This document shows, in pieces, positions 64-38,380 of a DNA stretch of 38,380 nt. The stretch spans positions 1 to 38,380 of the forward strand of contig RSEH01000352.1 of assembly GCA_006503475.1 (NCBI GenBank), written 5' to 3'. Origin of the DNA: Stentor roeselii. Lineage: Eukaryota > Ciliophora > Heterotrichea > Heterotrichida > Stentoridae. Every line of letters starts with the position of its first letter. The first letter of the stretch is position 1. The notes below the pieces were generated by a model. It searched no databases. It was given only the letters and a program-made list of their open reading frames with translations, and was not told the DNA's origin. Both the position numbers and the translations under genes were made by a program.

Positions 64-3000
64 TTAATTTTGGTTCACGCCAACTTCTATCAAATTTCTT
101 TTTTCATCATCATCTTCAGTATTTCTTGAATCCTTAGCACTTTTTTCAATCTCACTTAGAAAGACATTTGAATATAGCTGATTCAAAGAATCAAACGAAA
201 ATTCACTAACATTTTCTTCTTTATATTCTATAAAAGTGCAGCTTTTAACAAACCCAACCTTATCATAATATAATCCTTTCTTATGAATAATCTCATTATT
301 GAAATCTTCTGCAAAAGCATCTCCTTTCTTTAAAAGATGTCTAAGCTGGTGAAAATGTTTAACTAAAGTATCAGAAATTGCAAAACTCATCCAATAAATC
401 CATTTTACAATAAAAAAGCAATTTCCCAACACAACAGTAAAGAATAACAAAAAACTAGCGAAGTTTCCCATTCCTTCCACTAAGAAAAACTGTCCACAAT
501 AAATCGTAACATTAGCAGCTAATAAACTTTCCAATTCTAATGAATTCAATTCTGAAGAATTATAAGGTTTTATTTTATACTGCAGGAAAAATGCGAAAAT
601 CAACGCAAGTTCAACTAAAAGTGCTTGAATATAAACAGAAGTTTGTGATGTGAAGACCAAAATACAAATCATTACAAGTTTCCTGTATAAAACAATAAAT
701 TCCCAATAAAAAACTGAACTTTTATACCCATTGCACATAAATCCAAAAACTATTCGATTTTGGTCCTTAAAAAGTCGTTTTCGTTGTTTTATCATCATTA
801 TCAGAATAAGCGTAGGGGTTCCTATAGACCAGAGAAGAATTGAAGGTAAAGAAAGACATAAAGAGTACTTCTGATGAGTCCTTGTCCAACATTTCACTTC
901 ATGATTTTGAGTCAAAAAACTTCCTAATTGGTCGAAATAAGTGCATGAAAAACTTGAATAAATAAATTTCACTAGTCCTGGATGAACCAAAAAGAAAATA
1001 ACGATTATTGTTAAAGGTAGTTCTCGCTTCATCTGTGAATAGTTATCTTTGGTTGAACAGATGAACCACCAGACAAAAGTCGACCCGATGAAAATGATGA
1101 TGGGGAACAAGGAGTATAGAAAAAGTTTTAAGTAATAAACTTTTTCATAGTCTTCTGATGTTTTTAACTCGGAAAAGCAATCGATTGAAAAAAATACATC
1201 TGAAATTGTTGCTAACGACCTCTGCACCTTGAAAAATTCTTGAAGATAAAAAGGCCAAGATAGGTTAAACTCAGTTGTCAGATAAATAAGTTGCAAATAA
1301 TTTGTGAAAATCTTGATATAAATCGAATATTTCGACTTAGCTGTAAAAGCTGAATTTATCGTAGTAATCACTAAAATCGTACACATCGACACAAATGACA
1401 CGACAAGTAAAACTGATATAAAATAGTTCAGTTTTTTATCTGGACACTTGCTGCAACTGCCACTACTTCCTTTTGTGTATTGATTTTCACATGTATAGCA
1501 AGTGATCCCTGAATATCCTTCCAAACATTCGCTTTTGTATCCAGTTTTGTTACCAAGGCACACGTCTTTTAATTGACACTGATAAATCACTTCAGACTCG
1601 TTTGTTGTTCTGAAATAATTTGGCTTTACCCAAATGTTTGAACCTCCTGGACAGATACCGCCGGCTGGACATGATTTGCAGGTTTTTCCTGATTTGATTA
1701 AAAATTCGTTTACTGGGCAGACTGTGCAAGTGTCTAGATCTGAAGCTTCTCCAGGTCCACATTCCTTAAGACTAACTTGGATGGTTATGTTATTCTGGTA
1801 ATCAATCTCATCATTTCTTACCTTTTCATTCAACACTGAATCAATCGTTGCAATCAAAACTCCATTTGTTCCAGGTTTCGCTCTTAAAGTGAAATCACTT
1901 AAATTAAAAGTCCCTGAATGTGCCACAAAAGACGACTGTCCAGAAATAATAATCTGCCCACTAGATTTCAATTCAATAATACTTGAAAAATCACTTGAAA
2001 TAACCTGTCCATATGAGTCATAAACACTCAAAACTAAAGCTTCAGTTAAAGGTTGTCCAGGAGTGACAAAAATCCTGACAGCCTCAGCTTGAGTGACATT
2101 CAATTTCATTGTCTTTAAATCACCTGAAGCAAGTCTAGCAGGTCTTGTTGCATAATCAGGACCATAAAGTGCATAATTATCGGAAAAATTTACAGATTTT
2201 TCAATGATTGGTTTAAAATCTTGCCACATGATACCGCCACCACTTATCAATGCACTGTTGTTAAATAAGTTACTCTTTTCTTTTATTACGAATTCGCAGT
2301 TTTTACAATTAGGACTCTCGAAGAAGAAACCTCCACCTGATATAAGTGCTCTATTTGATATGAAAGTCGATCTGGATATCTCTACATTCATGTCTTTAAC
2401 AGTCACACCTCCTCCTGTGTGATTTGAAAGATTGTCTTGGAAGGTTGTATTGACGATAAAAAGATTCCCTTCTGAAGTTCCTCCTTCAAAATAACTTGCA
2501 CCGAAAAATAAACCGTTGATGTTTGTAAACAAACTAGATATTATGAGAATTTCTTTCATATCTGAAGTTTTAAGAGCTGAAACTGGATACGATAGATTTG
2601 CGAAAACAATACTTGAAAGATTTAGATAAGCACCTGAGGCTAAAATTGAAAACTGCTGATCTGTGCCTAAGGCTTGACTTTCTAAAAATTTTGAATTTTC
2701 CAATGAATAAGAGTGATCAGAGAGATAAAGATCAGATCCCTGAATTGCCTTATTTCCTACAAAAAATGAATTGTAAATGCTTAGTTTAGTATTTTTTGAA
2801 AAAATTGCTCCACCTTTATTGAAAGATGTGTTATTTTTAAATGAAGAATCAGAAATAGTAACATGTAAGCAGTTATCAACACTTATAGCTCCTCCTGATG
2901 AAGTTGAAATTCCAGCTACGAAATTCGAATCTGAAACAATTAAACTACTGGAAAGAGCCATATTCAAAAAAGACCCTGAAGTCTTTTCAAAGTAATTAAA

Positions 3001-6000
3001 AAATGTTGAGTTCCTGATTTGAAGCAATGACGAATAACTTGTCAATACTGAAGATGCTGGAATATCTGAAGTATTATTTGAAATTAAGCAAGAAGTTACT
3101 TGAAGATTTGTATTGTAAAGCTCGATCATATTACTGCTTTGTGAAAAGTTATCCTTTATTTTTGTTTCTTTTATTGAATTGTTACCGTTCGAATCGATTT
3201 GGAATAAAGATGTCTTGATGCCTTTGTAAATATTGTTAAAGATCTCAGAATTTTCTAGAATTAAATAACTTTCTCCACTGATTGAAAACAAAGTTCCGAA
3301 ATTTTTAAATATTTTACAGTTGTAACACTGAAAATATCCATTATTTTGAGAATTGATAAGGCTTGTTGAAAGTTCAGTAAAACTTGCATTATATATAGTA
3401 AGTTCAGTATTAGAAATATCTGCCAAATCTTTCATTTTTTTCACATTTAATTCTTTAAAAATTGCTGAAACTGAGGTTAATTTCAGTGCCTCAGCAAAAG
3501 ATTTATCAATACTCGACCCTACAGATGTTATTGTAACATTTTCGAATAACACCTGAGTTAAAATAATGCTATTTCCTACAATCTCAATAATATTATCACT
3601 TTTTAAGCAATCTCTTACGGTAAAGTTTTTGACTTCAAGTAATTTTCCATATTCTTGATATTGGGCTTTGATACCTTGAGTTAAAATACGAGTATTATTA
3701 AAAAATTCTATATTTTCTAATAGTAAAAGACCATCCACATGGGTGTCATAGATCATTGAATTAGAATCAAAATTTTCTGACCCAAAAACTCCAGAAATTA
3801 AAGAATCGTTGATTGACACTTTTTCAGATATGTAGAGAAAAGTTCCTTTTTTAGATGAAATTTTCTTAAAAGTTACATTTTTGATGTAAATATTGTGAGA
3901 TTTCACTGCTATTACCGAATCAAACATGAAAATACCAGCTATTCCATATACCCAAACATTTTGAATGACAAGATTGGATACTCTGATTGTTGAGATGTCC
4001 TTTATAGACAACATAAACAAAATAAAGCCGCAGTTACTTTTATAGTTATGTACCTCTATCAAATCAATATCATTCATTTCAAATTTGATTGAATTAATCA
4101 CCTTGATTGGAGATGAAAAATAAACTTCTAAATTCTTTAATTTAATTGACTTGATCAAAATACTTGGACACTCATTAAACTCAATAAGAGGTCCAATAAA
4201 ATTACTAATCATATTTCCGTCAACATTTTCAATATAAATGTTTGCTTCATTACTATAAAACATAAAAATAGTTCCTTGATCTCCATTCGATTTCATATTA
4301 TTAAACTTTGTATCAATTATTTTCAAATCTTTGTGAATACTTTCAAAGATAATCCCACTTGAAGCCTGATTACCTCCACAAAAGCAATTTTCTAAAGAGT
4401 TATTTTTCAATGTAACATTAATACATTCATTTATTTTAATACTTCCAGAGCAGTTTAAATTTCCAATCAAATCACTTCTCGGCATTAATTTCATATATTT
4501 CCCATTCTTATAGAAATTTTGAATAATTTCAAATAAATCATTTCTAGTCCCATCATGATTTCCATCAATTAGAACATCATTTAAAAAAACATTCGGCTGT
4601 TTATGAACATTTATCACAAATTCCCCTGCAGAGACCCAAAAAAACTTGAGTTGATTCAAAATAATTTTCCTTTGTTCAAGAGTCACAGTTTGAAAGTCCA
4701 ATTTAAATATTCCAACTTTTGTATTCTTGTAATCCAGAGCTCCTTGAAAGTCGATGTTGATGATGGAAGAATCAGCTGAAAAAACATGAGAAAAAGTCAA
4801 ATTATTTAAAAAGGTATTCTGGGTGAAGGTCTTTGTTAAATGATTGATCAGATGACCTGTTGTGAAAATATTTTCAAATAAAGAGTTGCTTATCTGGAGA
4901 TGAACAGTGTTTATCACTTCTGACCTGAATGTCACATTAGAAAAAAATTCCTCATAATTGACGAGGGTCATGTCAAAAATCATGAAGGTCTTAGCATAGA
5001 TATTACTGAATTTGCATTGATCGATTTTTATATTATCAAATATTGAGATAAAGCTAAACAGAAAAGAACTCGCTCCTGAGTTTTTCCCTGAATAAAGTAC
5101 ACTGAAATTAAAGTCGACTTCGATGATTTTCACTAACCTTATATGAGTCGCTCTTAAAAAACCACCAGTTTCAGTCCATTCTTTGATACTGTACCCAATG
5201 TTAAGATCTCGAATTGAGCCTTTATGAAAAGAGAAGAATACATTCTCACATATATTTTCACATGAAATTTCAATCACACTGCCTTTACTTGAAGGCTGAA
5301 TTCGCTCAAAGGTTACATTTTCCAGGACAAGAATATTTATTGATTTTATCAGGGCTTTGTTTTGGATCGTGAAATATCGGAAGGTGACATTTTGGAGAAA
5401 GGCTGATTTATTCAAAGTAAATAAAATGATTTCATTGTACATGGAACATTTTGTTGGCTGATAATATAGATCTGAAGTGCTTTGATCGGAAAAGTATTCG
5501 AACTTATCACTAATGTAATTAGTGTTAGTATTGTTTTTACTATTATAAAAGAAAGGGCAATAAAAACAGTATTCCGAGGGTAAGCTGCAACCATCTGATA
5601 ATATTTTTCTGCCATCAAAGATTATATTTTTTATCACTAACTTTTTACCAGTCCAAACAATTTTTAATATGTTTTGTGATTTATCTTTAATCCAATATAC
5701 TACAGAGGGCGATTCAGGATCACCTTGGATAGTAAGAATAATAAAACTCAATCGAATCTCTTGTTGATTGTACGTAACAGAACTGTCATTAACAAAATGA
5801 TGATTCCCTGAAGAAAGAATTATTCTTGTATAATCTTTGTTAATTTTAGTGAATGCATAGAATAATGAAAGATAAGGGTTTTCTTTGGTTCCATTTCCTG
5901 TTAAAAGTGGAGGGTCGCTTGAATTAACATAAATCATTTGAGGAACATGTTCATATCGACCCACAGTTGTATTTACACACCATTTTAATTTCGTTGAATT

Positions 6001-7302
6001 TTCATTGAACAGTTCTGTCAAATTAGAAATCAACTCTGAGTCAGGAGGACAGTCGCTAAATTCACTCTTGCATTCATTCTCTACCATTACACCATTACAA
6101 ATGATGCACTTATTATTAGTAGCACGTAAACAATTAGATGTATTATTACTTGCTCTTCCAAGGCACCACATAGCTTTTTTAGAATAACAAGGAGAAGTGA
6201 TATCACATTTTGGCCCGTTTAACGAATCATACTGCCTCAATGTTTGAATATTACATCCTGAAGGCAGATTATTCGGGTTAAAATAATAAAAAATACTGAA
6301 GATCATTATACTCATAATTTTATATCTTTTAACAAAGTCGTCAGGATTATTTTTTATGTTATACCAGCAGCTAGGATTATAGCAAGTATTAGATTCTTTA
6401 TAATTGGGCAAGATAATAAAATCATTATTTTTTCTGTACATCGGGCATTTGTAGAAACATTCACAATCAAATTCATCAAGTCTGCAATAATAATCACTAT
6501 AAGGATTTTCTTTATTATTATAGCATTCCGGATTACAAATATTGTTGTTTATCATTTCATCTTTGCAATCAGATTTACAACCTGAACATTTGGTATATTT
6601 GTAATTGCATGATTTTGTATTACAAGGGTCTAAGATGCCTTTGCAGTCGGTTTCTAGTTCATCAATATTGCAGTCGGGGGCACAAAGACACTCCCCATTA
6701 TCATAGTTACACTTTGCATTATTACAGTCATAATCACAATATCCATTTCCCAAGTATTCATCTAGACAAAACGGAGAACATTCTTTAAAGCAATTGTTAA
6801 TCAAATATCCTCTACAAAGTTCATCTCGACAAAGATCATTTTCACAAACTTCTTTAAGTACATCTGAAATTCCACAACCTTTAACACAGTAAGTACATTC
6901 ATAGTTATCAAATCCGCAATTATCTGTATTACAAGGACTATTTTCATGACATTTTTTATCCAACAACTCATCTACCCAACAGTTTTCAGCACAGACTCCA
7001 CAAAGACCAAGATCAAATGCACAGTATTTGTTGTTACATTCAGGATCACATGAGTCATTTTCAAGAAGTTCTAAAGTGCAGCCGGCGGCGATACAGTCAA
7101 CAATGCACTTTGAACTTTGAAATATTTCTGAATTTGAGAGGCCTTCGATTTGCACTATAGAATCGAAATTGCAGAGAATGTTATTGCATTCTGGACGACA
7201 TATATCGCTTCCGATTAATGCTTCATTGCAACGATGGATGGCACACTCAATTGCATAAACTCTTTGAAGTAAGCTAAGAACAAGAAGAAAGAGCTTTTCC
7301 AT
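64..7302 (-). CDS. Giant secreted/multipass membrane protein: Cys-rich LNR-like, beta-helix and C-terminal 7TM-like domain (copy L)
   Basis: A single open frame of 2412 residues without introns. Residues 1-17 form a signal peptide ending near VYA|IECA. Residues about 18-300 are Cys-rich repeats with Asn/Asp spacing like LNR/Notch modules (e.g. GNGYCDYDCNNAKCNYDNG). About 450-1750 is a long series of short beta-strand units with N-glycosylation sequons. Near residues 1465-1500 and 1630-1700 it has GGA/GGG-I-F motifs like Pmp/right-handed beta-helix repeats. Cys-rich linkers with CGPGEA and CPAGGICPGG lie near 1845-1885. From about 1958 several hydrophobic segments suggest a multipass domain, followed by an acidic cytoplasmic tail. 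Similar beta-helix plus membrane-domain giants are known in protists and algae. A cell-surface receptor, adhesin or channel is inference. The gene is paralogous to the one starting at 33086. Confidence 0.85.
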   Translation of the reverse strand: MEKLFLLVLSLLQRVYAIECAIHRCNEALIGSDICRPECNNILCNFDSIVQIEGLSNSEIFQSSKCIVDCIAAGCTLELLENDSCDPECNNKYCAFDLGLCGVCAENCWVDELLDKKCHENSPCNTDNCGFDNYECTYCVKGCGISDVLKEVCENDLCRDELCRGYLINNCFKECSPFCLDEYLGNGYCDYDCNNAKCNYDNGECLCAPDCNIDELETDCKGILDPCNTKSCNYKYTKCSGCKSDCKDEMINNNICNPECYNNKENPYSDYYCRLDEFDCECFYKCPMYRKNNDFIILPNYKESNTCYNPSCWYNIKNNPDDFVKRYKIMSIMIFSIFYYFNPNNLPSGCNIQTLRQYDSLNGPKCDITSPCYSKKAMWCLGRASNNTSNCLRATNNKCIICNGVMVENECKSEFSDCPPDSELISNLTELFNENSTKLKWCVNTTVGRYEHVPQMIYVNSSDPPLLTGNGTKENPYLSLFYAFTKINKDYTRIILSSGNHHFVNDSSVTYNQQEIRLSFIILTIQGDPESPSVVYWIKDKSQNILKIVWTGKKLVIKNIIFDGRKILSDGCSLPSEYCFYCPFFYNSKNNTNTNYISDKFEYFSDQSTSDLYYQPTKCSMYNEIILFTLNKSAFLQNVTFRYFTIQNKALIKSINILVLENVTFERIQPSSKGSVIEISCENICENVFFSFHKGSIRDLNIGYSIKEWTETGGFLRATHIRLVKIIEVDFNFSVLYSGKNSGASSFLFSFISIFDNIKIDQCKFSNIYAKTFMIFDMTLVNYEEFFSNVTFRSEVINTVHLQISNSLFENIFTTGHLINHLTKTFTQNTFLNNLTFSHVFSADSSIINIDFQGALDYKNTKVGIFKLDFQTVTLEQRKIILNQLKFFWVSAGEFVINVHKQPNVFLNDVLIDGNHDGTRNDLFEIIQNFYKNGKYMKLMPRSDLIGNLNCSGSIKINECINVTLKNNSLENCFCGGNQASSGIIFESIHKDLKIIDTKFNNMKSNGDQGTIFMFYSNEANIYIENVDGNMISNFIGPLIEFNECPSILIKSIKLKNLEVYFSSPIKVINSIKFEMNDIDLIEVHNYKSNCGFILFMLSIKDISTIRVSNLVIQNVWVYGIAGIFMFDSVIAVKSHNIYIKNVTFKKISSKKGTFLYISEKVSINDSLISGVFGSENFDSNSMIYDTHVDGLLLLENIEFFNNTRILTQGIKAQYQEYGKLLEVKNFTVRDCLKSDNIIEIVGNSIILTQVLFENVTITSVGSSIDKSFAEALKLTSVSAIFKELNVKKMKDLADISNTELTIYNASFTELSTSLINSQNNGYFQCYNCKIFKNFGTLFSISGESYLILENSEIFNNIYKGIKTSLFQIDSNGNNSIKETKIKDNFSQSSNMIELYNTNLQVTSCLISNNTSDIPASSVLTSYSSLLQIRNSTFFNYFEKTSGSFLNMALSSSLIVSDSNFVAGISTSSGGAISVDNCLHVTISDSSFKNNTSFNKGGAIFSKNTKLSIYNSFFVGNKAIQGSDLYLSDHSYSLENSKFLESQALGTDQQFSILASGAYLNLSSIVFANLSYPVSALKTSDMKEILIISSLFTNINGLFFGASYFEGGTSEGNLFIVNTTFQDNLSNHTGGGVTVKDMNVEISRSTFISNRALISGGGFFFESPNCKNCEFVIKEKSNLFNNSALISGGGIMWQDFKPIIEKSVNFSDNYALYGPDYATRPARLASGDLKTMKLNVTQAEAVRIFVTPGQPLTEALVLSVYDSYGQVISSDFSSIIELKSSGQIIISGQSSFVAHSGTFNLSDFTLRAKPGTNGVLIATIDSVLNEKVRNDEIDYQNNITIQVSLKECGPGEASDLDTCTVCPVNEFLIKSGKTCKSCPAGGICPGGSNIWVKPNYFRTTNESEVIYQCQLKDVCLGNKTGYKSECLEGYSGITCYTCENQYTKGSSGSCSKCPDKKLNYFISVLLVVSFVSMCTILVITTINSAFTAKSKYSIYIKIFTNYLQLIYLTTEFNLSWPFYLQEFFKVQRSLATISDVFFSIDCFSELKTSEDYEKVYYLKLFLYSLFPIIIFIGSTFVWWFICSTKDNYSQMKRELPLTIIVIFFLVHPGLVKFIYSSFSCTYFDQLGSFLTQNHEVKCWTRTHQKYSLCLSLPSILLWSIGTPTLILIMMIKQRKRLFKDQNRIVFGFMCNGYKSSVFYWEFIVLYRKLVMICILVFTSQTSVYIQALLVELALIFAFFLQYKIKPYNSSELNSLELESLLAANVTIYCGQFFLVEGMGNFASFLLFFTVVLGNCFFIVKWIYWMSFAISDTLVKHFHQLRHLLKKGDAFAEDFNNEIIHKKGLYYDKVGFVKSCTFIEYKEENVSEFSFDSLNQLYSNVFLSEIEKSAKDSRNTEDDDEKRNLIEVGVNQN

Positions 7303-7323
7303 TTATATTGGATGAGAAAATTT
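7303..7323 (-). promoter_or_regulatory. Conserved start-proximal block of copy L
   Basis: The 21 bases just upstream of the copy L ATG are identical to the 21 bases upstream of the second copy at 33086. The core is TTTTCTCATCCAATATAA. Sequence further upstream is clearly less similar between the two copies. This suggests a core promoter or 5'UTR element under constraint. The function is inferred from conservation only. Confidence 0.5.
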
Positions 7324-8479
7324 CAAAAAAATTTACAATATAATTTATTGAATATCTAAATAGTAAGGTTAGCATAATGGTTCATATATCCTTTACTTTA
7401 TTTTCAAGAAAAAGTTTGCACTGCTTAATAGTTTTGATCATTTAAAATCACCCTACTTCTTCAATAAGGTCTTAAAGCCTTATTCAAATAGACCGCTTTT
7501 GTAAACCTTACTAAAAAATTAGTAAAAAAGATTTTCATTTGAAATCAACATTATCAGTAGTTATCCAAATAATTATAATCATCTTGTCGTAAAAGTTTAT
7601 TTCTTGAAACCATTAGATTTTATATTTGTTTTGATGATGAACTCTAGTCCTTAATAAGTTTAACCCAAGCATTCTCTAGAAAATTATTCTTCTTGATCTC
7701 GATTCAAAAACATAAAGAGACCTTTAAACCTAAATAATTTTTCAGTGTTTTAAGTAAGAAAATTGCTTGTTATAGTTGTCCTATTTGCCTTAACTTATGA
7801 GTGTACCTCAACAAAGACTTTGACTGATAAAAAAACATCTAAACCAAGAAAGGCGATCTTTTAGACTATATCTAATTAGAAAGTTTCAGACTTGAATAAT
7901 TATTTAAGATTAGAGCTTCATTCTTATATTCAACCAGCTGGAAATCACTCTGCAAGTCTTTTTGAAGTTTTTCAATCTTTTTGTATTTACATAATTTAGA
8001 AGAAGGCTATTTTAGCATATGAGATCTTATATTGAGTAAGAGGATAGTTGATTAAAACCATCTTGATTCAAAAGTGTCAAAATAGCTCTATAAAACAAAT
8101 AATCCTAGTTATTCACGGAAAGGGTTTTACCAATTAAAACTACAGGAATTCAATAGTATAAAGCATATATTCCTAATTAGGCTAAGAAATATTAAATATG
8201 AGACTTCTTTTTATTATAAAAATATCTGATAATTAATATTATTAGGAAGTTATAGAGATATCTTATCAGGAAGTTGCAGAAATATTCTTATGAATCTGGT
8301 GAATTATTATAAAAAATTACTTTTAGGTTTCTTGCATACAAGGACATTTTTTTAGTCTTATATCTATGCTTAATGTAAAAATGTTTAAGGAAATTAAGTC
8401 TCTAAGAAAAATGTATAGATCATTTTCTTGAACTCATCTTGAGACCAGAGATTTATTATCGTAGGCGTATAGAAACTAT
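7324..8479. other. Decayed spacer shared with the right arm
   Basis: There is no intact gene here. The sequence is colinear with the reverse complement of about 31960-33064, but both copies are full of stops in all frames. On the plus strand some stretches still read like protein, for example LRLELHSYIQPAG near 7900-7950, mirrored by LRLELYSYNQPAG in the right arm. It is probably the upstream part of the relic gene that becomes recognisable from about 8480, but I could not align this half to the intact proteins by eye. Confidence 0.5.
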
Positions 8480-9612
8480 CAATGAAACAGAGTAATTATT
8501 AATTTTCAAAGGATTAACAGCTTTTTAACACTAGAAATCAACCAACTCAGTTCATGTAAAAAATGATTTAGTAAAATCATCAGAGAATCATGAGATGGTT
8601 GATTTTTAAGATTTTTATTGATCTTCAATATTCGAGGTAACCAGGATTTAGAGATTTTGGATAAAATAAGGGTTGAAAATATAGTTATTATCAAATCTAA
8701 AGTACTAAATCAAATAAATTATTTTCAATATATAGATCTTATTAACTTTATTGAGTTTTCAGTATGATTTACTTTAGTAAAATTACTGAAATTATCTTTA
8801 AACAGCAAGAAATCATGAATAGTTGTATAGGCTTTAATTACGAAATCAGAATTATCTAGAAATTCCTACCAAGTTATCCAAGTCAGAAATTTAAATCTTT
8901 AAAACTCAGATAATTCGATCTTGGTGCTCATAGTAAAACAGCGAAAATGAATATTTAAGGACCAGAATCGGATTAATTCGTATTTATATTCAAAGGGTAT
9001 AAAACTTAAATATTTTATTGGAAGTTCATTGTTTTGTACAGGAAATTTGTGATGATTTGCATTTGGTCATAACATCTCAAGCTTCTGTAGATATTCATAT
9101 TCTTTAGTTGAACTTGTCCTGATTTTTGCTTTTTTCTTGGATTATAGAATAAAATCATATAACTTCGCAGAACTTAATCCTTTGGAGTTGGAAAGTTTTT
9201 TATCTGATAATGTCACGATTGATTATGAGCAGTTTTTATTAGTTGGCTGAAGTAGAGACATCGTTTTTTTTTGTGGTTTTAGTAATTTTTATGGGAAATT
9301 GCTTTTTTACTGGCAAATGGATTTATTGGATAAACTTCGAGATTATTGAAATAGTTATTTTCAACAGGACAGGTGATTTTTAAATGGGATGATTTTGAGA
9401 AGATTTCATTTAGGTTGTTCAGAGGAATGGGTTGTATTTTGATGAGGGTGAGTGTGCGAAAGGATCTATTTTTATGGGGTTTGGTGAAGATTAAGTGAAT
9501 GGATTTTCGGTTCAGTCTTTGAATCAGCTTTATTCAGATGTAATGCTTAATTAAATTGGGAAAAGTGATCAGAATGCACAATGTATCTATATGGTGATGA
9601 GAAACAAATTTG
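8480..9612 (+). pseudogene. Relic of the C-terminal membrane domain of the giant-protein family
   Basis: Frame-shifted and stop-ridden plus-strand translation matches residues about 2010-2400 of copy L in order. Near 8590, KSSENHEMVDF matches KTSEDYEKVYY. Near 8920-8960, ILVLIVKQRK then IFKDQNRI matches LILIMMIKQRKRLFKDQNRI. Near 9110-9240, LVELVLIFAFFLDYRIKSYN then LELESFLSDNVTIDYEQFLLV matches the intact LVELALIFAFFLQYKIKPYN region. Near 9275-9340, MGNCFFTGKWIYW matches LGNCFFIVKWIYW. Near 9500, SVQSLNQLYSDV matches SFDSLNQLYSNV. At least four frame changes or stops separate these blocks. The relic points toward the kinase gene, head-to-head with copy L. It is a third, dead family member. 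Confidence 0.85.
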
Positions 9613-10407: not shown

Positions 10408-12015
10408 CTAGGCGCAATAAGTATTTGAAATAGATGATCTGAGAAAAATATATAAAACCTCTCTGAATAAGGGTCTCTGACTAGGATCTTCTTTTAGCAT
10501 TATTTTCAAGATATTTTTTGTTTCTTCAGAAAATTCGTATAAATTATCAATATCAGAATAGAAATCTTGAGTTCTCAAATTTTGGACATTTTTATAAAAA
10601 AGTAATTGGTAAAAGACAAGACCTAAACTGTAAACATCTGCTTTTTCTCTGTTGAACTTTGCATGAGAAAGTCCTTGATTTAATGCTGCCTTAAGTTCAG
10701 GAGCTAAATATGCAGTGGTACCCTGGATTTTAAACGAATCAGTCATTGAAAAGCTAGAATTTGATATCTGTAGTAAGGAAATGTCAAAGTCAATAATTTT
10801 TATATTCCAATTATAATCTGCCAATATGTTGTGAGGCTTAATGTCATTGTGCAAAATACCATAATCAGCCATAATTGTGAATGATTGTAAAAGTCTATAA
10901 ATTATATTAAGGTAATGAATTTCTGAAAATTTAAAGTTCGTTTTCTGAAGATGATGGATAATACCAATTAAGGTTGAGTCATACCAATCCATAATCATAT
11001 AAATAGATTTGTATCCTTCAAAATAACTTCCATAGTATTCTATAAAGCAATTGTCAGGTTTAGATAACTCACTAAGCTTTTCATATATTCTTATTTCATT
11101 ACAAGCCTTTTCAATATATTTTATTGAGTCATTTAATGATGTATATATTTTAACGCAAACTTTTTTTCCCCGATACGTACCTTCATAAATACTTATATTC
11201 AAATCTCCCCTCTGAATAGTATATTTTGAAGGTTGTTTTATAGTAAATAAAGACTTATCGATTAATTTCAAGTCCATAGTTATCCTTTCGAAATCCTGAC
11301 GCATTTTTATAATATCTAACTGTTCATCAGTTTCCTGATAAGCGACTATATTAGAGATTTTTTTATTATAGAGATTAATTTGATTTTTAACTCTATTACT
11401 TGTTTTGAAATCCTCAAACTTACTCAGTATTTCCTGAGACTTCTGAATAACTTTCTCACTATGTGCAAATTTAGGGTTTTCTAGTTTATTATTGTTTATA
11501 AAATCAATATATTCAAAAATAGTATCAGAAAAAATATTAGTAATTTCTTCGATGTCTATTCCATGACTAAGAACATTGTTTAAAGATCCAAGATTTTCTT
11601 TAGATAAACCATTTTGTTGAAATGATTGCAATAATTGTTTAATAATCAAATCATATTCTATATCATTATGCCTTTCATTAGATACAACTATATTTTTTTC
11701 AACATCTATTATTAAGTTCATAATTTCATTTGATGCTTTTCTTATACTTTTAATAATCAATTCGCTCTGTTGGATAATTTTATATTTGAACTCTTTTAAT
11801 CTCTTTAAGAAATTTTTTTGTAAATCTATCCCTTTTTTAGCCCTAATCATATTTTCAAGTTCTTCATTATTAAGTAAGAGGATATTATGCTTCTTTTTCT
11901 GGTGTTCACGTAGATGATTAATGCACAATTTAAAATTATTTCCACAACTGTTGCAGATTCCTTCGGCTTCACCACTTTTGCAGTTTTTTTCATCGCAGTT
12001 CATATTTATAGACAT
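10408..12015 (-). CDS. B-box-like / coiled-coil / protein kinase
   Basis: 535 residues. A Cys/His cluster at residues 7-43 (C7, C12, C21, C24, C31, H34, H38, H43) resembles a B-box-type zinc module. Residues about 50-250 are helical, probably coiled coil. A kinase domain fills about 268-530: VCVKIY with the beta-3 lysine K289, the catalytic loop HNDIKPHN (D391, K393, N396), DFD at 409-411 where DFG is usual, and APE at 438-440. It should phosphorylate Ser/Thr or Tyr on unknown substrates; the residue set suggests it is active apart from the DFG glycine being Asp. The closest visible relatives are ciliate kinases with N-terminal zinc or coiled-coil regions. It diverges from the WD40 gene at 13386, whose N-terminus carries a similar zinc module. 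Confidence 0.88.
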   Translation of the reverse strand: MSINMNCDEKNCKSGEAEGICNSCGNNFKLCINHLREHQKKKHNILLLNNEELENMIRAKKGIDLQKNFLKRLKEFKYKIIQQSELIIKSIRKASNEIMNLIIDVEKNIVVSNERHNDIEYDLIIKQLLQSFQQNGLSKENLGSLNNVLSHGIDIEEITNIFSDTIFEYIDFINNNKLENPKFAHSEKVIQKSQEILSKFEDFKTSNRVKNQINLYNKKISNIVAYQETDEQLDIIKMRQDFERITMDLKLIDKSLFTIKQPSKYTIQRGDLNISIYEGTYRGKKVCVKIYTSLNDSIKYIEKACNEIRIYEKLSELSKPDNCFIEYYGSYFEGYKSIYMIMDWYDSTLIGIIHHLQKTNFKFSEIHYLNIIYRLLQSFTIMADYGILHNDIKPHNILADYNWNIKIIDFDISLLQISNSSFSMTDSFKIQGTTAYLAPELKAALNQGLSHAKFNREKADVYSLGLVFYQLLFYKNVQNLRTQDFYSDIDNLYEFSEETKNILKIMLKEDPSQRPLFREVLYIFLRSSISNTYCA

Positions 12016-29128: not shown

Positions 29129-29620
29129 AGTCTTAGGTGTTAAACTCACTTAAATTATAGGGTTGTAAATAGACTAAGGCACTTTCATTAATTCTATTCA
29201 AAAATTATCTCAGGGTGTTAAACTGATATTCCAGGGTATTAGATAGACTAAGTACTTTCATTTTCCTATTCAAAAATTAACTAAGGGTGTTAAACTAATA
29301 TTCCAGGGTGTTACATAGACTAAATACTTTCATTTCCTATTCAAAAATTATCTCAGGGTGTTAAATCAATATTCCAGGATGTTAGATAGACTAAAGATTT
29401 ATTTTCCTACTCAACAATAATATCAGGGTGATAAATCAAATATTCAAGGGTGTTAGATAGACAAAAATTCTATTTTTCCTTCTCGACAATAATCTCAGGG
29501 TGTTAAATCAATATTCCAGGGTGTTAGATATACTAAATAAATTTAATTTCTCCTAATAAACAATAATCTTATGGTGTTAACCCTCTAACTATTCCAGAGT
29601 ATTTAGACTAAATCATTTTC
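29129..29620. repeat. Minisatellite, about seven units of about 72 bp
   Basis: Degenerate tandem repeats lie between two convergent genes. The motif GGGTGTTAAA recurs at about 29135, 29213, 29285, 29356, 29426, 29498 and 29572, i.e. spacings of 70-78 bp. Each unit has two (C)AGGGTGTTA boxes about 26 bp apart (the second followed by GATAGACTAAA), then a pyrimidine-rich segment (CTTTCATTTTCCTA) and CAAAAATTATCT. Outer units are more diverged. A further single GGGTGTTA is at 29092. Confidence 0.92.
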
Positions 29621-29630
29621 ATTATCCTAC

Positions 29631-30236: not shown

Positions 30237-30283
30237 TTATCGATGAAGTCTAATGAAAATCAAAAGCCAAAATCTTTATTCTA

Positions 30284-30931
30284 TTAGAACCTCTTAGTCG
30301 ACGACTCAGTTAAATTATGACTTTTGACACTATGATAAATTTTTTTCAATCTCATCGAAGCCGTTGTGTTGATTAACTTCGTATTCGAGCTATAAGGAGT
30401 AAAAATCCTGTTAAAACATTCAGTATTCACCTTTTTACTTGTAAAAGGAAAGACACCTTTCGAGTAAATCTCCAAAAACTTCGGGGATTGTTTCGGAGAT
30501 TTTTTTACTCTGTCTGTTTTCATCAGTCGACATGATAAATGACGTTCGCCTTTTTTTTCATCGGTTTTGATGGGAATTTGAATGTTTAGGTTAAAACTCA
30601 CCTTTTTTGAATGATGCTTTTCTGATGACTTTTCGCTTGTCAAGGCTTGGGTTGAAGATTTCGAGATTTTGTGAGAACTTGAAGTTTTCCCGAGATTTTC
30701 GAAACTGTTTTTAGAAGAGACTTGCTTTGACTTGGTTTTTTTGTGACCGAGTTTTCGGGGAAATTTGTATTCGGAGTTTATTTTTGATTGGGAGAACTTT
30801 TTATCGATTTCTTTTCGGATTGCCACGTCGATGTCGCTGTTGAAACTTGTTTCGATTAGGAAGGAGTTGAAGCTGTCGTTGGATTTTAAGTGTTTTTCGG
30901 TGTTTATCCGCTTTTTGGAAGAGATTTTCAT
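30284..30931 (-). CDS. Lys/Ser-rich protein of unknown function
   Basis: 215 residues, very rich in Lys and Ser and probably disordered. Possible phosphorylation clusters include KKSPKQSPK. There is no signal peptide, membrane segment or known domain. The start is the first ATG of the frame. Support comes from frame length and gene-like codon composition, plus position in a tandem pair with the Rab gene (47 bp). A nuclear or cytoskeleton-associated role would be a guess. Confidence 0.6.
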   Translation of the reverse strand: MKISSKKRINTEKHLKSNDSFNSFLIETSFNSDIDVAIRKEIDKKFSQSKINSEYKFPRKLGHKKTKSKQVSSKNSFENLGKTSSSHKISKSSTQALTSEKSSEKHHSKKVSFNLNIQIPIKTDEKKGERHLSCRLMKTDRVKKSPKQSPKFLEIYSKGVFPFTSKKVNTECFNRIFTPYSSNTKLINTTASMRLKKIYHSVKSHNLTESSTKRF

Positions 30932-31249
30932 GATTTTGGAATTATTTAAGTGATTTCGATTTTTTTTAATGGAATGGCAGGAAGTTGGATTTTTAGAGGA
31001 ATTTAGATGATTTTAGGAGATAATCAAACCTCGTCAAAAGTTTGATTCTAATTATAAAGAAGTTTATTTTTCTAATGTTTAAAAATTAAGTCATCAAATC
31101 GATAAAACTAACCAATACTCTTGATCCACTATTTCTTCATTTAAAAATAACTCAAAATCTATGTTATATTACAGAGATCTATTAAAATACTCATTGTCAA
31201 TCCACAAAATTTTCAAAAACTATATTTTAAGGAATCAATATAAAATTAC
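30932..31249. other. Spacer between unknown gene and right relic
   Basis: AT-rich, with the upstream region of the minus-strand gene at 30931. I see no gene, RNA or repeat here. Confidence 0.4.
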
Positions 31250-33064
31250 CCTTTTCTGAATCCCTTATTGAAGAGGCCGCTGCTAATTTGAAATATGTAT
31301 TTTTAATAAATCTTATATTTATTGTGCAGTAAAGAAATATGTAGATGTTAAATTAACTTTAGACTTTAATAAAGAAATTAGTTTTTGAATCAAAATTTAA
31401 GATATCTTAGTTTAAAACATGTAAATTTTCTGAACTTGAATGGAAAACTTTTTATGAATTTTTATATTATTCTGATTTCTTAGTTAAAGTCGTAAGAAAG
31501 CTATAAATTCATTTCCAGAATCAAAGAAATCTCAAATTTTCAAATAATTAAAAAATTATCAGAAATTTTTTAGATGAATGAATATCTTGAAAATATTCAA
31601 ATCGTAAACTACTGAAAAATTATTACTGATGAAAATATTTTAGAGTAAAAGTTTAAAACTATTATTTTTGTTTTTGAACGAGAATTTCAATAATGACAAT
31701 ATTAAAGTTAATCATACTCAAATAAACTAAAAAAATTGAATTATATCTATTTTAATAGGGTTTATATTCAAAACTTATTTGATTTAAAAACAACACTTCT
31801 AGTTACCTTGATAATTAAAAATCGATAAAAAAAGCAACCATATCATGATTCTCTAATGATTTTACTAATCGAGCTTTGAAATAAACTAGATTTACTTATT
31901 CTTATCATAAAAGGATGTTAAACCTTCGAAACATAAATATTTCTCTGTTTCATTGATAGACTCTAAAGAGTCAATGATGATAAAAATCCAGTCTAGGGAT
32001 TCATTCAAGGAAATCATAATATTCATGTTTCCTTCGACACTCAAATTCCTCAGATATATTCACATTAAGTTTTAAATCCTAAACTAAAAAAATGTCTGAA
32101 TACAAAAGAAACTTGAAATAATATTTTATTAAGATTTAAAATTTCACTCAGAATAATAAAGATCTGAATGCAATTTCCTAATAAAATCTTTCTGCAACTT
32201 CCTATTAAGATTATTTGAAGAAAGTCTCAAATTTAACTATTTCATACCATGATTAGGAAAATATACTTAATACTCTTGAAATTCCTGTAGTTCAATTGGT
32301 AGAATCTTAATCCATGAATCCCTAAGAGTCTTTTTTCGTAAAGCTACTTTGATACTTAAAGATTAAGATGGTTTTAATCAATTTCGTATTTCTCAATATA
32401 AGATCTCGCAGGTTAAAGAGCTTATTTCTTAGTTATCTATATACAGAAAAAGTTTGAAAAACTTCAAATTACTTGAAGAGTAACTTCCAGCTGGCTGATT
32501 ATAAGAATAAAGCTCTAATCTTAAGAATTTGATAAAAGTCTGAAAATCCTCTAATAAAATATAAGTCTAAATCTCGCCTTTCTTAGTTTTAGAAGGTCTT
32601 TTCCCAGTCGAAGTCTTTTGTCAGGTAAACTTATAACTTAAACCTAAGAGAACAACTAATGTAAACAATTCTACTGCTTAGAACTCTAAAAATAATTGAG
32701 GTTTTAAGATCTCTCTATTGTTTTAGAACGAGATCACTAAGAATGAATCTCTAGAGAATTCCAAGGTTAAACTTATTAAGGACTTAGAGTTTATAATCAA
32801 CAAACATAATTTCTTATGGTTTCAGGAAAGAAACTTTTACTATAAGATTTATTCGAATACTTTAGATGTAATGTTAATCACAAATGAAAGTCTTTTTTTG
32901 ACTAATTTTTCAGAAAAAGTTTAGAAAAGTGGTTAAATAGAGAAAGGCTTTCAAGCTTCATTGAAGAAATAGGCTGATTTTAAATAATCAAACTAGTTGA
33001 GCATTCAAATCTCCTTCGGGTTTAAGTAACATATCCAAATAAACTATATTTTGAAAATAATTTC
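31250..33064 (-). pseudogene. Highly decayed counterpart of the left relic (right arm)
   Basis: Read on the minus strand, this region is colinear with 7324 to about 9500 of the left arm. Clear matches occur at 32900-32990, 32470-32640, 31990-32120, 31820-31960 and 31700-31740. Segments such as LVKSLENHDMV (near 31840) still align with KTSEDYEKV of the intact membrane domain, and the stretch near 31250-31300 resembles the intact NNEIIHKKGLYYD codons. Stops and frameshifts occur throughout. It is best read as a dead family member transcribed toward the unknown gene, older or less constrained than the left relic; the limits are approximate. Confidence 0.6.
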
Positions 33065-33085
33065 AAATTTTCTCATCCAATATAA
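33065..33085 (+). promoter_or_regulatory. Conserved start-proximal block of copy R
   Basis: Identical over 21 bp to the block before copy L (core TTTTCTCATCCAATATAA). It sits directly before the ATG and is therefore a candidate promoter/5'UTR element. Confidence 0.5.
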
Positions 33086-36000
33086 ATGAAAAAGCTCTTG
33101 CTTCTTGTTCTTATCTTAGTTCAAAGAAATTATGCTATTGAATGTGCAATCCATCGTTGCGAAAAAGGATTAATTGGAAGCGATATCTGTCATCCAGAAT
33201 GCAATAATATTCTCTGCAATTTCGATTCTATAGTAGAAATTGAAGGCCTTTCAAATTCAGAAATATTTCAAAGTTCAAAGTGCATCATTGACTGCATCGC
33301 CACTGGTTGCACCTTAGAACTTCTTGAGAATGACTCATGTGATGTTGAATGTAACAATGAATACTGTGCATTTGATCTTGGTCTTTGTGGCGTCTGTGCT
33401 GAAAACTGTTGGGCAGATGAGTTGTTGGATAAAAAATGTAATGAAAATAGTCCATGTAATATAGATAATTGCGGATTTGATAACTATGAATGCAATTACT
33501 GTGCAGAAGGTTGTGGGATTTCAGATGTGATTAAAGAAGGTTGTGAAAATGATAAATGTCGAGATGAACTTTGTAGGATTGTTCCAGATAATAATTGCTT
33601 TAAAGAATGCTCTCCATATTGTTTAGATGAATACTTGGAAAATGGGTATTGTGATGAAGATTGTAATACAGAAAAGTGTAATTATGATAATGGCAAGTGT
33701 CTTTGTGCCCCCGGCTGCAATATTAATGAACTAGAAACCGACTGCAAAGGCATCTTAGACCCATGCAATACAAAATCATGCAATTACAAATATTCCAAAT
33801 GTTCAGGTTGTAATTCTGATTGCAAAGATGAAATGATAAACAACAATATATGTAATTCAGAATGCTATAATGATAAAGAAAATCCTAATAGTCAAAATCA
33901 TTGCAGACTTGATGAATTTGATTGTGAATGCTCTTACAGATGTCCGATGTACAGAAAAAATAATGATTTTGTAGTCTTGCCTAATTATCAAGAAGATGAT
34001 TTTTGCTATGAACCTAGCTGTTGGTTTAACATCAAAAATAATGCTGACGATTTTGTTAAGAGATATAAAATCTTAAGTGCTATGATCTTCAAAGTTTATA
34101 GTTATTTCGACCTGAATATGCTACCTTCAGGATGTAATATTCAAACATTGAAGCAGTATGATTCTTTAAATGGACCAAAATGTGATATCAGTTCTCCTTG
34201 TTATTCGGAGAAAGCTTTGTGGTGTCTTGGAAGAGCAAATAATAATACTGCTAATTGTTTGCGTGCTACCAATAATACGTGCATTGTTTGTAATGGTGTT
34301 ATTGTAGAGAATGAATGCAAGAGTGAATTAAATGACTGTCCTGCTGACTCAGAGTTGATTTCTAATTTGACAGAGCTGTTCAATGAAAATTCAACGAACT
34401 TGAAATGGTGTGTAAATACGACTGTTGGTCAATATGAGCATGTTCCTAAATTGATTTATGTTAATTCAAGCGACCCTCCACTTTTAACAGGAAACGGAAC
34501 CAAAGAAAACCCTTATCTTTCATTATTCAATGCATTCACTAAAGTTAACAAAGATTATACAAGAATAATTCTTTCTTCAGGGGATCATTATTTTGTTAAC
34601 GATAGTGCTGTTGAATATAATCAACAAGAGATTCAATTGAGTTTTATTATTCTTACTATAGAAGGTGATCCTAAATCGCCTTCGGTAGTATATTGGATAA
34701 AAGATAAATCTCGAAAAATTTTAAACTTGGTTTTGACTGGTAAAAATATCGAGATAAGAAACATAGTTTTCGACGGCATAAAAATATTAAGAGATGATTG
34801 CACCTTATCTCCCGAGTATTGTCTTTATTGCCCTTTCTTTTACAATAGTCAAAACAATACTTCCACAAACTACGCGAATGATAAGTTCGAATATCTCCCC
34901 AATGAAAACCCTTCAGATCTATTTTATCAACCAAAAAAATGTTCCATGTACAATAAAATCATTTTATTTACTTTCTATCAATCAGCCTTGCTTCAAAACG
35001 TCACCTTTCAGTATTTCACAATCCAAAACAAAGTCCTTATCCAATCAAAAAGTATTCTTCTGCTCGAAAACGTTACTTTTGAGAGAATTCAACCGTCAAG
35101 CAAAGGCAGCGTTATTGAAATTTCATGTGAAAATTCATGCGAAAAAACAATTTTTTCTTTCCATAAGGGCGAGATTAGAGATCTTAATATTGGGTATAGT
35201 GTTAAAGAATGGACTGAAACTGGTGGGTTTTTAAGTGCTTCTCATATAAAGTCTGTGGAAATCATCGGAGTTGAATTTAAATTCAGTTTAATTTACTCAG
35301 GGAAAAACTTAGATGCGAGTTCTTTTATTTTTAGCTTTGTCTCAGTATTTGGCAATGTAAAGATCGATCAGTGCAAGTTCAGCAACATCTACGCAAAGAC
35401 CTTCATGCATTTCGACATGACTCAAGTAAATTATGAGGAACTCTCTTTTAATGTGACATTTCGGTCAGAAGTGATAAACACTATTCATCTCCAGATAAAC
35501 AATTCCTTATTTGAAAACATTTTCACAACAGGTCATCTGATCAATCATTTAACAAAGACCTTCACCCAAAATGTCATTTTAAATAATTTGACTTTTTCTA
35601 ATGTTTTCTCAGCTGACTCTTCTATCATCAACATCGACTTTCAAGGAGTTCTGGATAACAAGAATACAAAAGTTGGAATATTTAAACTGGACTATCAAGC
35701 TGTGACTCTTGAACAAAAGAATATTATTTTGAATCAACTCAAGTTTTTGTGGGTCTCTGCAGGGGAATATGTGATAAATGTTCATAAACAGCCGAATGTT
35801 TTTTTAAATGATGTTCAAATTGATGGAAATCATGATGGGACTAGAAATGATTTATTTGAAATTATTCAAAATTTCTATAAGAATGGGAAATATATGGAAT
35901 TAATGCCGAGAAGTGATTTGATTGGAAATTTAAACTGCTCTGGAAGTATTAAAATAAATGAATGTATTAATGTTACATTGAGAAATAACTCTTTAGAAAA

Positions 36001-38380
36001 TTGCTTTTGTGGAGTTAATCAGGCTTCAAGTGGGATTATCTTTGAAAGTATTCAAAAAGAATTGAAAATAATTGATACGAAGTTTTATAATATAAGATCG
36101 AATGGGGATAAAGGAACAATTTTTATGTTTTCTAGTAATGAAGCAAACACTGTGATTGAAAATATTGAGGCAAATATGATTAGTAATACTATTGGACCTC
36201 TTATTGAGTTTAATGACTGCCCAAGTATCTTGATCAAGTCATTTAAATCAAAGAATTTAGATGTTTATTTTTCATCTCCAATTAAGGTGATTAATTCAAT
36301 CAAATTTGAAATGACTGATATTAATTCGATTGAAATTCATAACTATAAAAGTAACTGTGGCTTTCTTTGGTTTATGCTGTCTATAAAAGAAATCTCTACA
36401 ATAACAGTATCCAATCTTGCAATCCAAAATGTTTGGGTATATGGAATAGCTGGTATTTTCATGTTTGATTCGGTCATAGCAGTGAAATCTCACAATATCT
36501 ACATAAAAAATGTAACTTTTAAGAACATTTCATCTAAAAAAGCAACTTTTCTTTACATATTAGAAAAAGTATCTCTCAACGATTCTTTAATTTCTGGAGT
36601 TTTTGGGTCAGAAAACTTTGATTCTAATTCGATGATCTATGATATTCATGAAGATGGTCTTTTACTATTAGAAAATATAGAATTTTTCAATAATACTCGA
36701 ATTTTAACTCAAGGGATAAAAGCGCAATACCAAGAATATGGAAAATTACTTGAAGTCAGGAATTTTATTGTAAGAGATTGCTTAAAAAGTGATAATATTA
36801 TTGAGATTATAGGAAATAGCATCAATTTAACCCAGGTATTATTCGAAAATGTTACAATTACATCTGTCGGGTCGAGTATTGATAAATCTTTTGCTGAGGC
36901 ACTGAAATTAACATCAGTTTCAGCAATTTTTAAAGGATTAAATGTAAAAAAAATGAAAAATTTGGCAGATATTTCTAATACTGAACTTACTATATATAAT
37001 GGAAGCTTTAGTGAACTTTCAACAAGCCTAATCAATTCTCAAAACAATGGGTATTTCCAGTGTTACAACTGTCAAATTTTTAATAATTTAGGAACCTTGT
37101 TTTCAATCAGTGGAGAAAGTTATTTAATCCTAGAAAACTCTCAGATATTTAACAACATTCACAAAGGTATCAAGACATCTTTATTCCAAATCGATTCGAA
37201 TGGTAATTATAACAATTCTATCAAAGAAACAACAATCAAGGATAATTTTTCACAAAGTAGCAATTTGATTGAGCTTTACAATACAAATCTTCAAGTAACT
37301 TCCTGTTTATTTTCTAACAACACCTCAGATATTCCATCATCTTCAGTATTGACAAGCTATTCGTCATTGCTTCAAATCAGAAACTCAACATTTTTGAATT
37401 ATCTTGAAAAAAATTCAGGGTCTTTTTTGAATATGGTTCTTTCGAGTAGTTTGATTGTCTCAGATTCGAATTTCGTAGCTGGAATTTCAACTTCATCAGG
37501 AGGAGCTATAACTGTTGAAAATTGCTTACAAGCTACAATTTCTGATTCTTCATTTAAAAATAACACATCTTTCAATAAAGGTGGGGCAATATTTTCAAGA
37601 AATACTAAGTTAAGGATTTCAAATTCTTTTTTTGTAGGAAATCGGGCAAATCAGGGATCTGATCTTTATCTATCTGATCACTCTTATTTATTGGAGAATT
37701 CCAAATTTTTAGAAAGTCAAGCCTTAGGCACAGACCAGCAGTTTTCAATTTTAGCCTCAGGTGCTTATCTAAATCTTTCGAGTATCGTTTTCGCAAATTT
37801 AACTTATCCAGTTTCAGCACTAAAAACTTCATATATGAAAGAAATTCTTATAGTATCTTGTTTTTTTAGCAACATCCACAGTTTATTTTATGGTGCAAGC
37901 TATTTTGAAGGAGGACCTTCAAAATGTAATCTTTTTATCCTCAATACGACCTTCCAAGATAATCTTTCAAATCACACAGGAGGAGGTGTGACTGTGAAAG
38001 ACATGAATGTGGAGATATCCAGATCAACCTTCATATCAAATAAGGCACTTGCATCAGGTGGAGGCTTATTTTTCGAAAGTCCTAATTGTAAAAATTGTGA
38101 ATTTTTAATAAAAGAAGAGAGTAACCTATTTAATAACAGTGCATTGATAAGTGGTGGCGCAATCATGTGGAAGGATTTTAAACCTATAATCGAGAAATCT
38201 GTTAATTTTTCCAATAATTCTGCACTATATGGTCCTGATTATGCAACAAGACCTGCTAGATTATTTTCAGTTGATGTAAAGACATTGAAATTGAATGCCA
38301 CTAAAGTTGAACCTGCAAAGATTTTTGTCACACCTGGACAGCCTCTTGATGAAGTTTTAGTTTTAAGGGTCTTTGACTCG
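33086..38380 (+). CDS. Giant secreted/multipass membrane protein, copy R (3' end outside window)
   Basis: I followed the frame line by line: 1765 codons from ATG to the last base with no stop or frameshift, so the gene looks intact as far as visible. It parallels copy L residue for residue. Signal peptide MKKLLLLVLILVQRNYA, then the same Cys-rich LNR-like repeats, Asn-rich glycosylation sites, the beta-helix region with GGAI/GGGV/GGGL motifs, and VTPGQP near the window edge. In the first 60 residues 10 differ; cysteines are almost all kept. The C-terminal membrane domain is expected beyond the edge. Coding similarity is much stronger than in the adjacent upstream region, which indicates selection on the protein in both copies. 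Confidence 0.88.
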   Translation, partial: MKKLLLLVLILVQRNYAIECAIHRCEKGLIGSDICHPECNNILCNFDSIVEIEGLSNSEIFQSSKCIIDCIATGCTLELLENDSCDVECNNEYCAFDLGLCGVCAENCWADELLDKKCNENSPCNIDNCGFDNYECNYCAEGCGISDVIKEGCENDKCRDELCRIVPDNNCFKECSPYCLDEYLENGYCDEDCNTEKCNYDNGKCLCAPGCNINELETDCKGILDPCNTKSCNYKYSKCSGCNSDCKDEMINNNICNSECYNDKENPNSQNHCRLDEFDCECSYRCPMYRKNNDFVVLPNYQEDDFCYEPSCWFNIKNNADDFVKRYKILSAMIFKVYSYFDLNMLPSGCNIQTLKQYDSLNGPKCDISSPCYSEKALWCLGRANNNTANCLRATNNTCIVCNGVIVENECKSELNDCPADSELISNLTELFNENSTNLKWCVNTTVGQYEHVPKLIYVNSSDPPLLTGNGTKENPYLSLFNAFTKVNKDYTRIILSSGDHYFVNDSAVEYNQQEIQLSFIILTIEGDPKSPSVVYWIKDKSRKILNLVLTGKNIEIRNIVFDGIKILRDDCTLSPEYCLYCPFFYNSQNNTSTNYANDKFEYLPNENPSDLFYQPKKCSMYNKIILFTFYQSALLQNVTFQYFTIQNKVLIQSKSILLLENVTFERIQPSSKGSVIEISCENSCEKTIFSFHKGEIRDLNIGYSVKEWTETGGFLSASHIKSVEIIGVEFKFSLIYSGKNLDASSFIFSFVSVFGNVKIDQCKFSNIYAKTFMHFDMTQVNYEELSFNVTFRSEVINTIHLQINNSLFENIFTTGHLINHLTKTFTQNVILNNLTFSNVFSADSSIINIDFQGVLDNKNTKVGIFKLDYQAVTLEQKNIILNQLKFLWVSAGEYVINVHKQPNVFLNDVQIDGNHDGTRNDLFEIIQNFYKNGKYMELMPRSDLIGNLNCSGSIKINECINVTLRNNSLENCFCGVNQASSGIIFESIQKELKIIDTKFYNIRSNGDKGTIFMFSSNEANTVIENIEANMISNTIGPLIEFNDCPSILIKSFKSKNLDVYFSSPIKVINSIKFEMTDINSIEIHNYKSNCGFLWFMLSIKEISTITVSNLAIQNVWVYGIAGIFMFDSVIAVKSHNIYIKNVTFKNISSKKATFLYILEKVSLNDSLISGVFGSENFDSNSMIYDIHEDGLLLLENIEFFNNTRILTQGIKAQYQEYGKLLEVRNFIVRDCLKSDNIIEIIGNSINLTQVLFENVTITSVGSSIDKSFAEALKLTSVSAIFKGLNVKKMKNLADISNTELTIYNGSFSELSTSLINSQNNGYFQCYNCQIFNNLGTLFSISGESYLILENSQIFNNIHKGIKTSLFQIDSNGNYNNSIKETTIKDNFSQSSNLIELYNTNLQVTSCLFSNNTSDIPSSSVLTSYSSLLQIRNSTFLNYLEKNSGSFLNMVLSSSLIVSDSNFVAGISTSSGGAITVENCLQATISDSSFKNNTSFNKGGAIFSRNTKLRISNSFFVGNRANQGSDLYLSDHSYLLENSKFLESQALGTDQQFSILASGAYLNLSSIVFANLTYPVSALKTSYMKEILIVSCFFSNIHSLFYGASYFEGGPSKCNLFILNTTFQDNLSNHTGGGVTVKDMNVEISRSTFISNKALASGGGLFFESPNCKNCEFLIKEESNLFNNSALISGGAIMWKDFKPIIEKSVNFSNNSALYGPDYATRPARLFSVDVKTLKLNATKVEPAKIFVTPGQPLDEVLVLRVFDS

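Follow-up and report, generated by a model that had tools for sequence, protein, structure and literature searches.

The 38,380 bp contig of Stentor roeselii described here (RSEH01000352.1 of assembly GCA_006503475.1) carries at its two ends an inverted pair of giant genes; "the window" below is this complete contig, C290 of the 44.4 Mb, 522-contig genome that was searched. We read the two genes, tentatively and with a confidence that falls a little short of even, as duplicated members of a large family of giant surface transient receptor potential (TRP)-like receptor-channels that are plausibly gated by contact or force. The sequence establishes the modules and the order in which they come (weakly in the case of the beta-helix), the existence of the family, constraint on its sequence and a distant link of its membrane domain to TRP-like proteins; surface location, topology, channel activity, calcium passage and gating by contact or force are features that we infer for the family.

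Copy 1 (64..7302, minus strand) is intact and encodes 2,412 amino acids from ATG to TAA with no frame break; its lack of introns means that no frame break was needed, and the family alignment has private insertions of 5 and 6 residues. Copy 2 (33086..38380, plus strand) is an open frame found by its inverted alignment to copy 1, and it leaves the contig end after codon 1,765, so of the two copies that a first-pass annotation of this DNA had called intact only copy 1 is. The divergent inverted pair that it described is present: the open frames point outward, their start codons are separated by 25,783 bp, and in a self-alignment of the window the arms are 89–90% complementary over stretches of 523, 3,618 and 1,170 nt. 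The upstream regions are duplicated in mirror orientation as it had also claimed, the 5' flank of copy 1 (7303..8912) being an inverted duplicate of the 5' flank of copy 2 (31403..33085), with 73% identity over one 1.29 kb piece and three shorter pieces, extending outward to about 1.6 kb.

Over 1,763 aligned codons the two proteins are 84.6% identical with a single two-codon indel, and the nucleotide changes fall at 320 third codon positions and at 150 and 126 of the other two positions. Nonsynonymous (dN) and synonymous (dS) divergences are 0.078 and 0.331, giving an omega (dN/dS) of 0.235 by NG86, 0.34 by LWL85 and 0.24 by YN00, a joint value for both copies that covers copy 2 for its first 1,763 codons. 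The flanks have diverged about as much as dS predicts for unconstrained DNA. Both copies had been held to be functional, with a dN/dS near 1 as the outcome that would speak against it; the pair value of 0.24 indicates purifying selection and does not speak against that part of the claim, and the intactness of both copies, the other part, is not supported. A 450-nt patch (4315..4764 on the minus strand in copy 1, 35624..36073 in copy 2) has just 15 differences, a value that none of 2,000 codon permutations reached, and is a probable product of gene conversion. The end of contig C63 falls inside a gene whose 236 codons there match codons 2177–2412 of copy 1 at 80.5% identity (dN 0.099, dS 0.447); judging by this similarity copy 2 probably ends in this piece, some 410 codons in between lying in neither contig, the alternative being that the piece is part of a third close copy.

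It could be argued that the mirrored arrangement is an artefact of assembly, a fold-back join or misjoined copies of genes that are real and not mirrored, and the contig does end inside copy 2 and 63 bp past copy 1. However, the arms differ at 596 of 5,289 coding positions (11%) and at about 27% of flank positions, which argues against a simple fold-back, the stretch between the arms has no other mirrored repeat of at least 60 nt, and head-to-head members of the family are also found on contig C132; we regard an artefact as highly improbable.

The protein encoded by copy 1, all of whose parts lie on the minus strand, begins with an N-terminus that is hydrophobic by eye and continues as an LNR/Cys-rich head with 55 Cys (amino acids 1–420, 6043..7302). 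Pfam Notch (PF00066) matches three stretches of copy 1 above cut-off with an E value of 3e-8, and LNR is above cut-off in all four of the other family members tested, in agreement with the LNR-like repeats noted in the first-pass annotation. The stalk that follows (amino acids 421–1780, 1963..6042), about 1,350 residues of which are weakly indicated to be beta-helix-like, matches Pfam Beta_helix at E 0.001, below the curated cut-off. Such beta-helix-type matches, all weak and below cut-off, occur in four of five long proteins and a Chlam_PMP match, likewise below cut-off, in two of the five scanned, and the 18 aligned members contain 88 GG[AGS][ILVFM] motifs compared with 6.3 in shuffled sequences; the Pmp-like beta-helix proposed earlier is retained in this weak form. 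The Pfam scan of copy 1 at E≤0.1 gave LNR and Beta_helix lines only, with none for EGF or ankyrin repeats, scans of copy 1 and the other long proteins gave no autotransporter line (the C-terminal domain is modelled as helical), and the ML-like domain PF14558 was not found in five long proteins at E≤0.1.

Beyond the stalk lie a juxtamembrane Cys-rich module that is Eph-receptor-like (amino acids 1841–1955, 1438..1782), the polytopic TRP-like membrane domain (amino acids 1951–2329, 316..1452) and a variable, presumably cytosolic, tail (amino acids 2330–2412, 67..315). Among PDB sequences the profile of the juxtamembrane module touches Notch1 EGF chains at E 0.3, the whole copy 1 protein has two matches (E 0.21 and 0.32), the C-terminal profile has 25, none better than E 0.3 and most of them Notch1 EGF, p53 and Eph chains, and the membrane-domain profile has none at E≤10. 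The earlier description mentioned neither the Eph-like module nor the relationship that links the membrane domain to the TRP-like family PF06011, and the latter bears on its guess of mechanosensing.

The membrane domain was aligned from 44 members (45 stretches were prepared from part of the 62 C-terminal matches described below, one of which, L117, contained an internal stop and was excluded) and has 10 invariant columns. Its AlphaFold2 model (pLDDT 86.8, pTM 0.84) is polytopic, as the multipass domain of the first reading would have it, and contains nine long membrane-type helices as well as shorter ones, helices 4 and 5 being joined by a hairpin that holds a conserved pair of Cys; on this model the domain is probably nine-helix. 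The fungal TRP-like family PF06011 of Pfam matches nine of the 44 members at E≤1, and two of the ten members scanned singly are above its cut-off of 28.5 bits (L094 with 31.2 bits, E 1.4e-7, and L104 with 28.6 bits). Used as a query, L094 recovers the copy 1 membrane domain with an E value of 9.7e-59 and 33% identity, so the PF06011 relationship carries over to copy 1. A six-frame search of the genome with PF06011 gave 14 matches, six of them on family loci. Independently of the profiles, the model finds its best match in the viral structure library BFVD, with probability 1.00 and E 1.5e-5, in a protein from Megaviridae that carries the name "Transient receptor potential ion channel"; two more Megaviridae proteins match at probability 1.00. 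With three proteins predicted from environmental Megaviridae resembling the modelled domain, channel-like proteins of this sort may be present in giant viruses; 20 pattern matches on viral contigs included no relative. On the evidence of the profiles and the model we place the membrane domain as a distant relative of PF06011, without filing the protein as a member of the Flc/Pkd2 group. Fission yeast Pkd2 is presumably a member of PF06011. It is called TRP-like in the title of PMC11333956 and is described as having a nine-helix domain that passes Ca2+ on membrane stretch (PMC11277609, partial text).

A number of results weigh against a TRP-like channel. Taken one at a time, the members have little sequence evidence tying them to PF06011: at E≤1, 35 of the 44 members, the copy 1 protein among them, have no match to it, the six family loci in the genome search are all below cut-off (27.5 and 27.8 for the L094 and L104 loci), and the three genome matches that exceed it are non-family genes (C254:32190-33053, C86:76249-77046 and C53:91014-91643). 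In the hydropathy profile eight membrane peaks are clear and that of helix 2 is marginal, and the overall superposition on the viral fold match is poor (TM-score 0.56, root mean square deviation 11.9). When two models were searched against PDB folds nothing reached E≤0.001 and the membrane domain had no clear counterpart, a result that does not in itself prove a new fold. The Ion_trans, PKD_channel and 7tm models match none of the 44 members at E≤1, no pore residues were identified in the membrane domain, and proteins of PF06011 are themselves mostly putative channels. In addition, some yeast proteins of this family are described as putative flavin carriers (PMC9600462, partial text), a point that favours a membrane domain which moves lipids or small molecules in the manner of a flavin carrier or scramblase, with the outer part as a receptor for the substrate or for contact. 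Several annotated relatives are, however, described as calcium channels or calcium regulators, and we find such a transporter quite improbable.

A Cys-rich module joined to a helical bundle is also what a G protein-coupled receptor (GPCR) signalling as class C receptors do would have, but here the model fits more than seven membrane helices, the Z level of the fold matches is unspecific for helical bundles, the unmatched 7tm models include 7tm_3, and PMC9960496 (partial text) reports that family C GPCRs were not found in ciliates; a GPCR-like receptor is therefore very improbable. The C254, C86 and C53 genes mentioned above are further TRP-like genes that the family queries missed, and one of them lies in a 2,218-amino-acid frame.

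The first-pass annotation had called the pair "possibly" part of a multigene family, and the genome contains a large one. With the whole copy 1 protein as query, and the best 20 of 238 candidates scored, there are at least 21 matches, 16 of 21 being nearly full-length in frames of about 2,350–2,600 codons; apart from copy 1 itself they are 30–44% identical to it. The C-terminal 567 amino acids give 62 matches at about 54 loci (broken copies match piecewise). Twenty-three of these matches are in frames of at least 2,350 amino acids (one of which, on C51, has a TAA inside the matched stretch) and 21 are in frames of 444–1,305 amino acids, which we call the short type and which may be last exons of longer genes in which introns break the frame; the rest are cut or broken. 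A further member is represented in the window by a decayed membrane domain and tail (8746..9581, plus strand) with broken frames and many stops. Contig C132 has three members in minus, plus and minus orientation and C356 has three that are all minus, one C132 member being 76% identical to one C356 member. With mixed or tandem order in these other clusters, the inverted pair loses the special standing it had been given, and on the sequence comparisons it is one duplication within the larger family. We note that L012 and L013 on C132 (C132:8228-9943) are head-to-head with 1.7 kb between their matched starts, and may share a promoter region.

An alignment of 18 members (from 21 frames, with L026, L029 and L030 excluded) has 163 near-invariant columns, 68 of which are Cys, and is least conserved in the tail. 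In two full-length pairs omega is 0.13–0.15 for the Cys-rich and membrane parts, 0.28–0.30 for the stalk and 0.51–0.56 for the tail, the values of the second pair being rough as its dS exceeds 1. By these comparisons the family combines a conserved membrane machinery with varied outer parts and tails, and owes its growth to duplication, accompanied by a measure of conversion and decay.

The size of the family, its diverged outer parts, its remnants and its conversion are also what one would expect of a variable surface coat or adhesin, in which the outer part matters for shielding, adhesion or self/non-self labelling, as in the antigen repertoires of ciliates, and the membrane domain is a mere anchor. 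The surface antigens of Paramecium are partly subtelomeric multigene families (PMC9788069, partial text), and 24 of the 30 long-type matches here (rows that include fragments and cut genes) are within 20 kb of a contig end, compared with 9 of 21 for the short type and 6 of 22 for PP2C genes taken as a control; the control consists of 22 of the 23 best matches (104 listed), one per contig, with a C520 match 22.8 kb from an end excluded (6 of 23 if it is counted). Yet (CCCTAACA)n telomere repeats, which are found at the ends of some other contigs of this genome, occur in only two of 18 contig-end pieces (150–219 bases) next to or opposite members; in other contigs they occur in two of 40 first-60-base pieces, one of 20 in each group. 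Since contigs stop inside family genes and 16 of the 18 end pieces have no telomere repeats, broken assembly can explain the contig-end bias of the long type, which counts against an antigen-like interpretation; a telomere-proximal location of the long members was dropped for the same two reasons. Moreover, both pairs show their strongest constraint in the membrane part, which members with far shorter outer regions also retain; a mere anchor would need neither, and on balance we think a coat or adhesin unlikely. Contigs C290, C63, C274 and C515 break off inside a family gene or within a few bases of one, as though these genes were hard to assemble, perhaps owing to conversion patches or allelic variation.

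If the receptor-channel reading is correct, the outer part would touch or bind a surface outside the cell, be it prey, substrate, a partner cell or the cell coat, the pull or binding would travel down the stiff stalk, cross the disulphide-rich module and reach the membrane domain, and the latter would open a calcium-permeable path. Such a contact-coupled cation path is proposed for the family by analogy with the stretch-activated Ca2+ passage of fission yeast Pkd2. Touch elicits a response in Stentor and other heterotrichs, and the response habituates. A mechanoreceptor channel in Stentor was reportedly deduced from physiology by Wood in 1982 and 1988 (cited in PMC7935092), and we know of no gene that has been assigned to it. 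That the family includes heterotrich touch receptors, with a repertoire of outer parts that discriminates among touched objects and is diversified by duplication, conversion and decay, is a further step that we consider distinctly unlikely; if true, it would supply a molecular candidate for that channel. The family offers a concrete set of candidates in which outer parts as long as about 2,000 residues adjoin a TRP-like membrane domain, with 23 frames of at least 2,350 amino acids in one genome, and it suggests how a membrane domain known chiefly from much smaller fungal proteins can be joined to outer parts that are giant and look adhesive. Among the papers listed in literature searches on ciliates, on Stentor and other heterotrichs and on PF06011 in protists, none describes this architecture in its title or the opening of its abstract; it may be reported elsewhere.

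Removal of two 15-nt GT..TAG introns (24012 and 24354) turns the transporter gene of the window into a single frame of about 312 amino acids. Blepharisma is described as having CCCTAACA repeats, introns mostly of 15 or 16 bp, and UGA read as tryptophan (PMC9942806, partial text). The 264 Trp codons in 16 full-length family frames are TGG every time and TGA is absent from their 39,281 codons, so TGA is no usual Trp codon here, and it may be a little-used stop in this genome. The genes examined in the window (16 open reading frames and the split transporter gene, from 27 listed open reading frames with antisense and open ones excluded) end in 13 TAA, 4 TAG and no TGA, and the family frames at loci L010–L030 in 11 TAA, 8 TAG and no TGA. 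Rfam and tRNA scans of the window gave no match. Between the GST-like and Rab-like genes (names given by eye) a repeat occurs five times head-to-tail with a spacing of 71–72 bp (29149–29537). The PP2C gene (20167–21408) has a paralogue that is 72% identical (C466:31359-32603), the next closest being 56%, hinting at duplication of a single gene or of a bigger block. The kinase (10408–12015) and the WD40 protein (13386–14756) each begin with a short Cys/His stretch that is B-box-like by eye, and each has many relatives in the genome; the match listings, read without a count, showed no obvious pattern of co-location between relatives of these two neighbours and family members.

The family shares single features with several known systems. 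Notch receptors also have LNR domains (three stretches in copy 1, E 3e-8), but they have EGF and ankyrin repeats and a single membrane helix, whereas copy 1 has neither repeat at E≤0.1 and a polytopic model. Polycystin-1/2 and other animal TRP channels with large ectodomains join a big outer part to a TRP-type membrane domain and have been proposed to sense force or contact. The comparison is confined to how they might work, their outer modules being different and PKD_channel and Ion_trans being unmatched in the 44 members. The motifs GGA[ILV] and FxxN define the chlamydial Pmp proteins, to which the Pmp-like proteins of Trichomonas are comparable, and repeats of this type are found in the stalk of the family; chlamydial Pmp proteins end in an autotransporter barrel, in contrast to the helical C-terminal domain here, for which there is no autotransporter line. 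The variable surface antigens of Paramecium and the leucine-rich repeat clusters of Tetrahymena are likewise expanded, clustered and fast-changing families (PMC9788069 and PMC6564038, partial texts), but the Paramecium antigens are glycosylphosphatidylinositol-anchored (PMC9788069, partial text) where this family has a conserved polytopic membrane domain, and the repeats differ. The fungal Flc/Pkd2 proteins of PF06011 resemble the family in their related membrane domain with its probable nine-helix layout, in having an outer N-terminal part and in their C-terminal tail. They differ in size and in what lies outside the membrane: Cryptococcus Flc1 has 766 amino acids, and an ML-like or ML domain is present at the N-terminus of most Flc1 homologues (PMC9600462, partial text); in the Stentor family, where no such domain was found, its place is taken by some 1,950 residues comprising LNR, beta-helix-like and Cys-rich modules.
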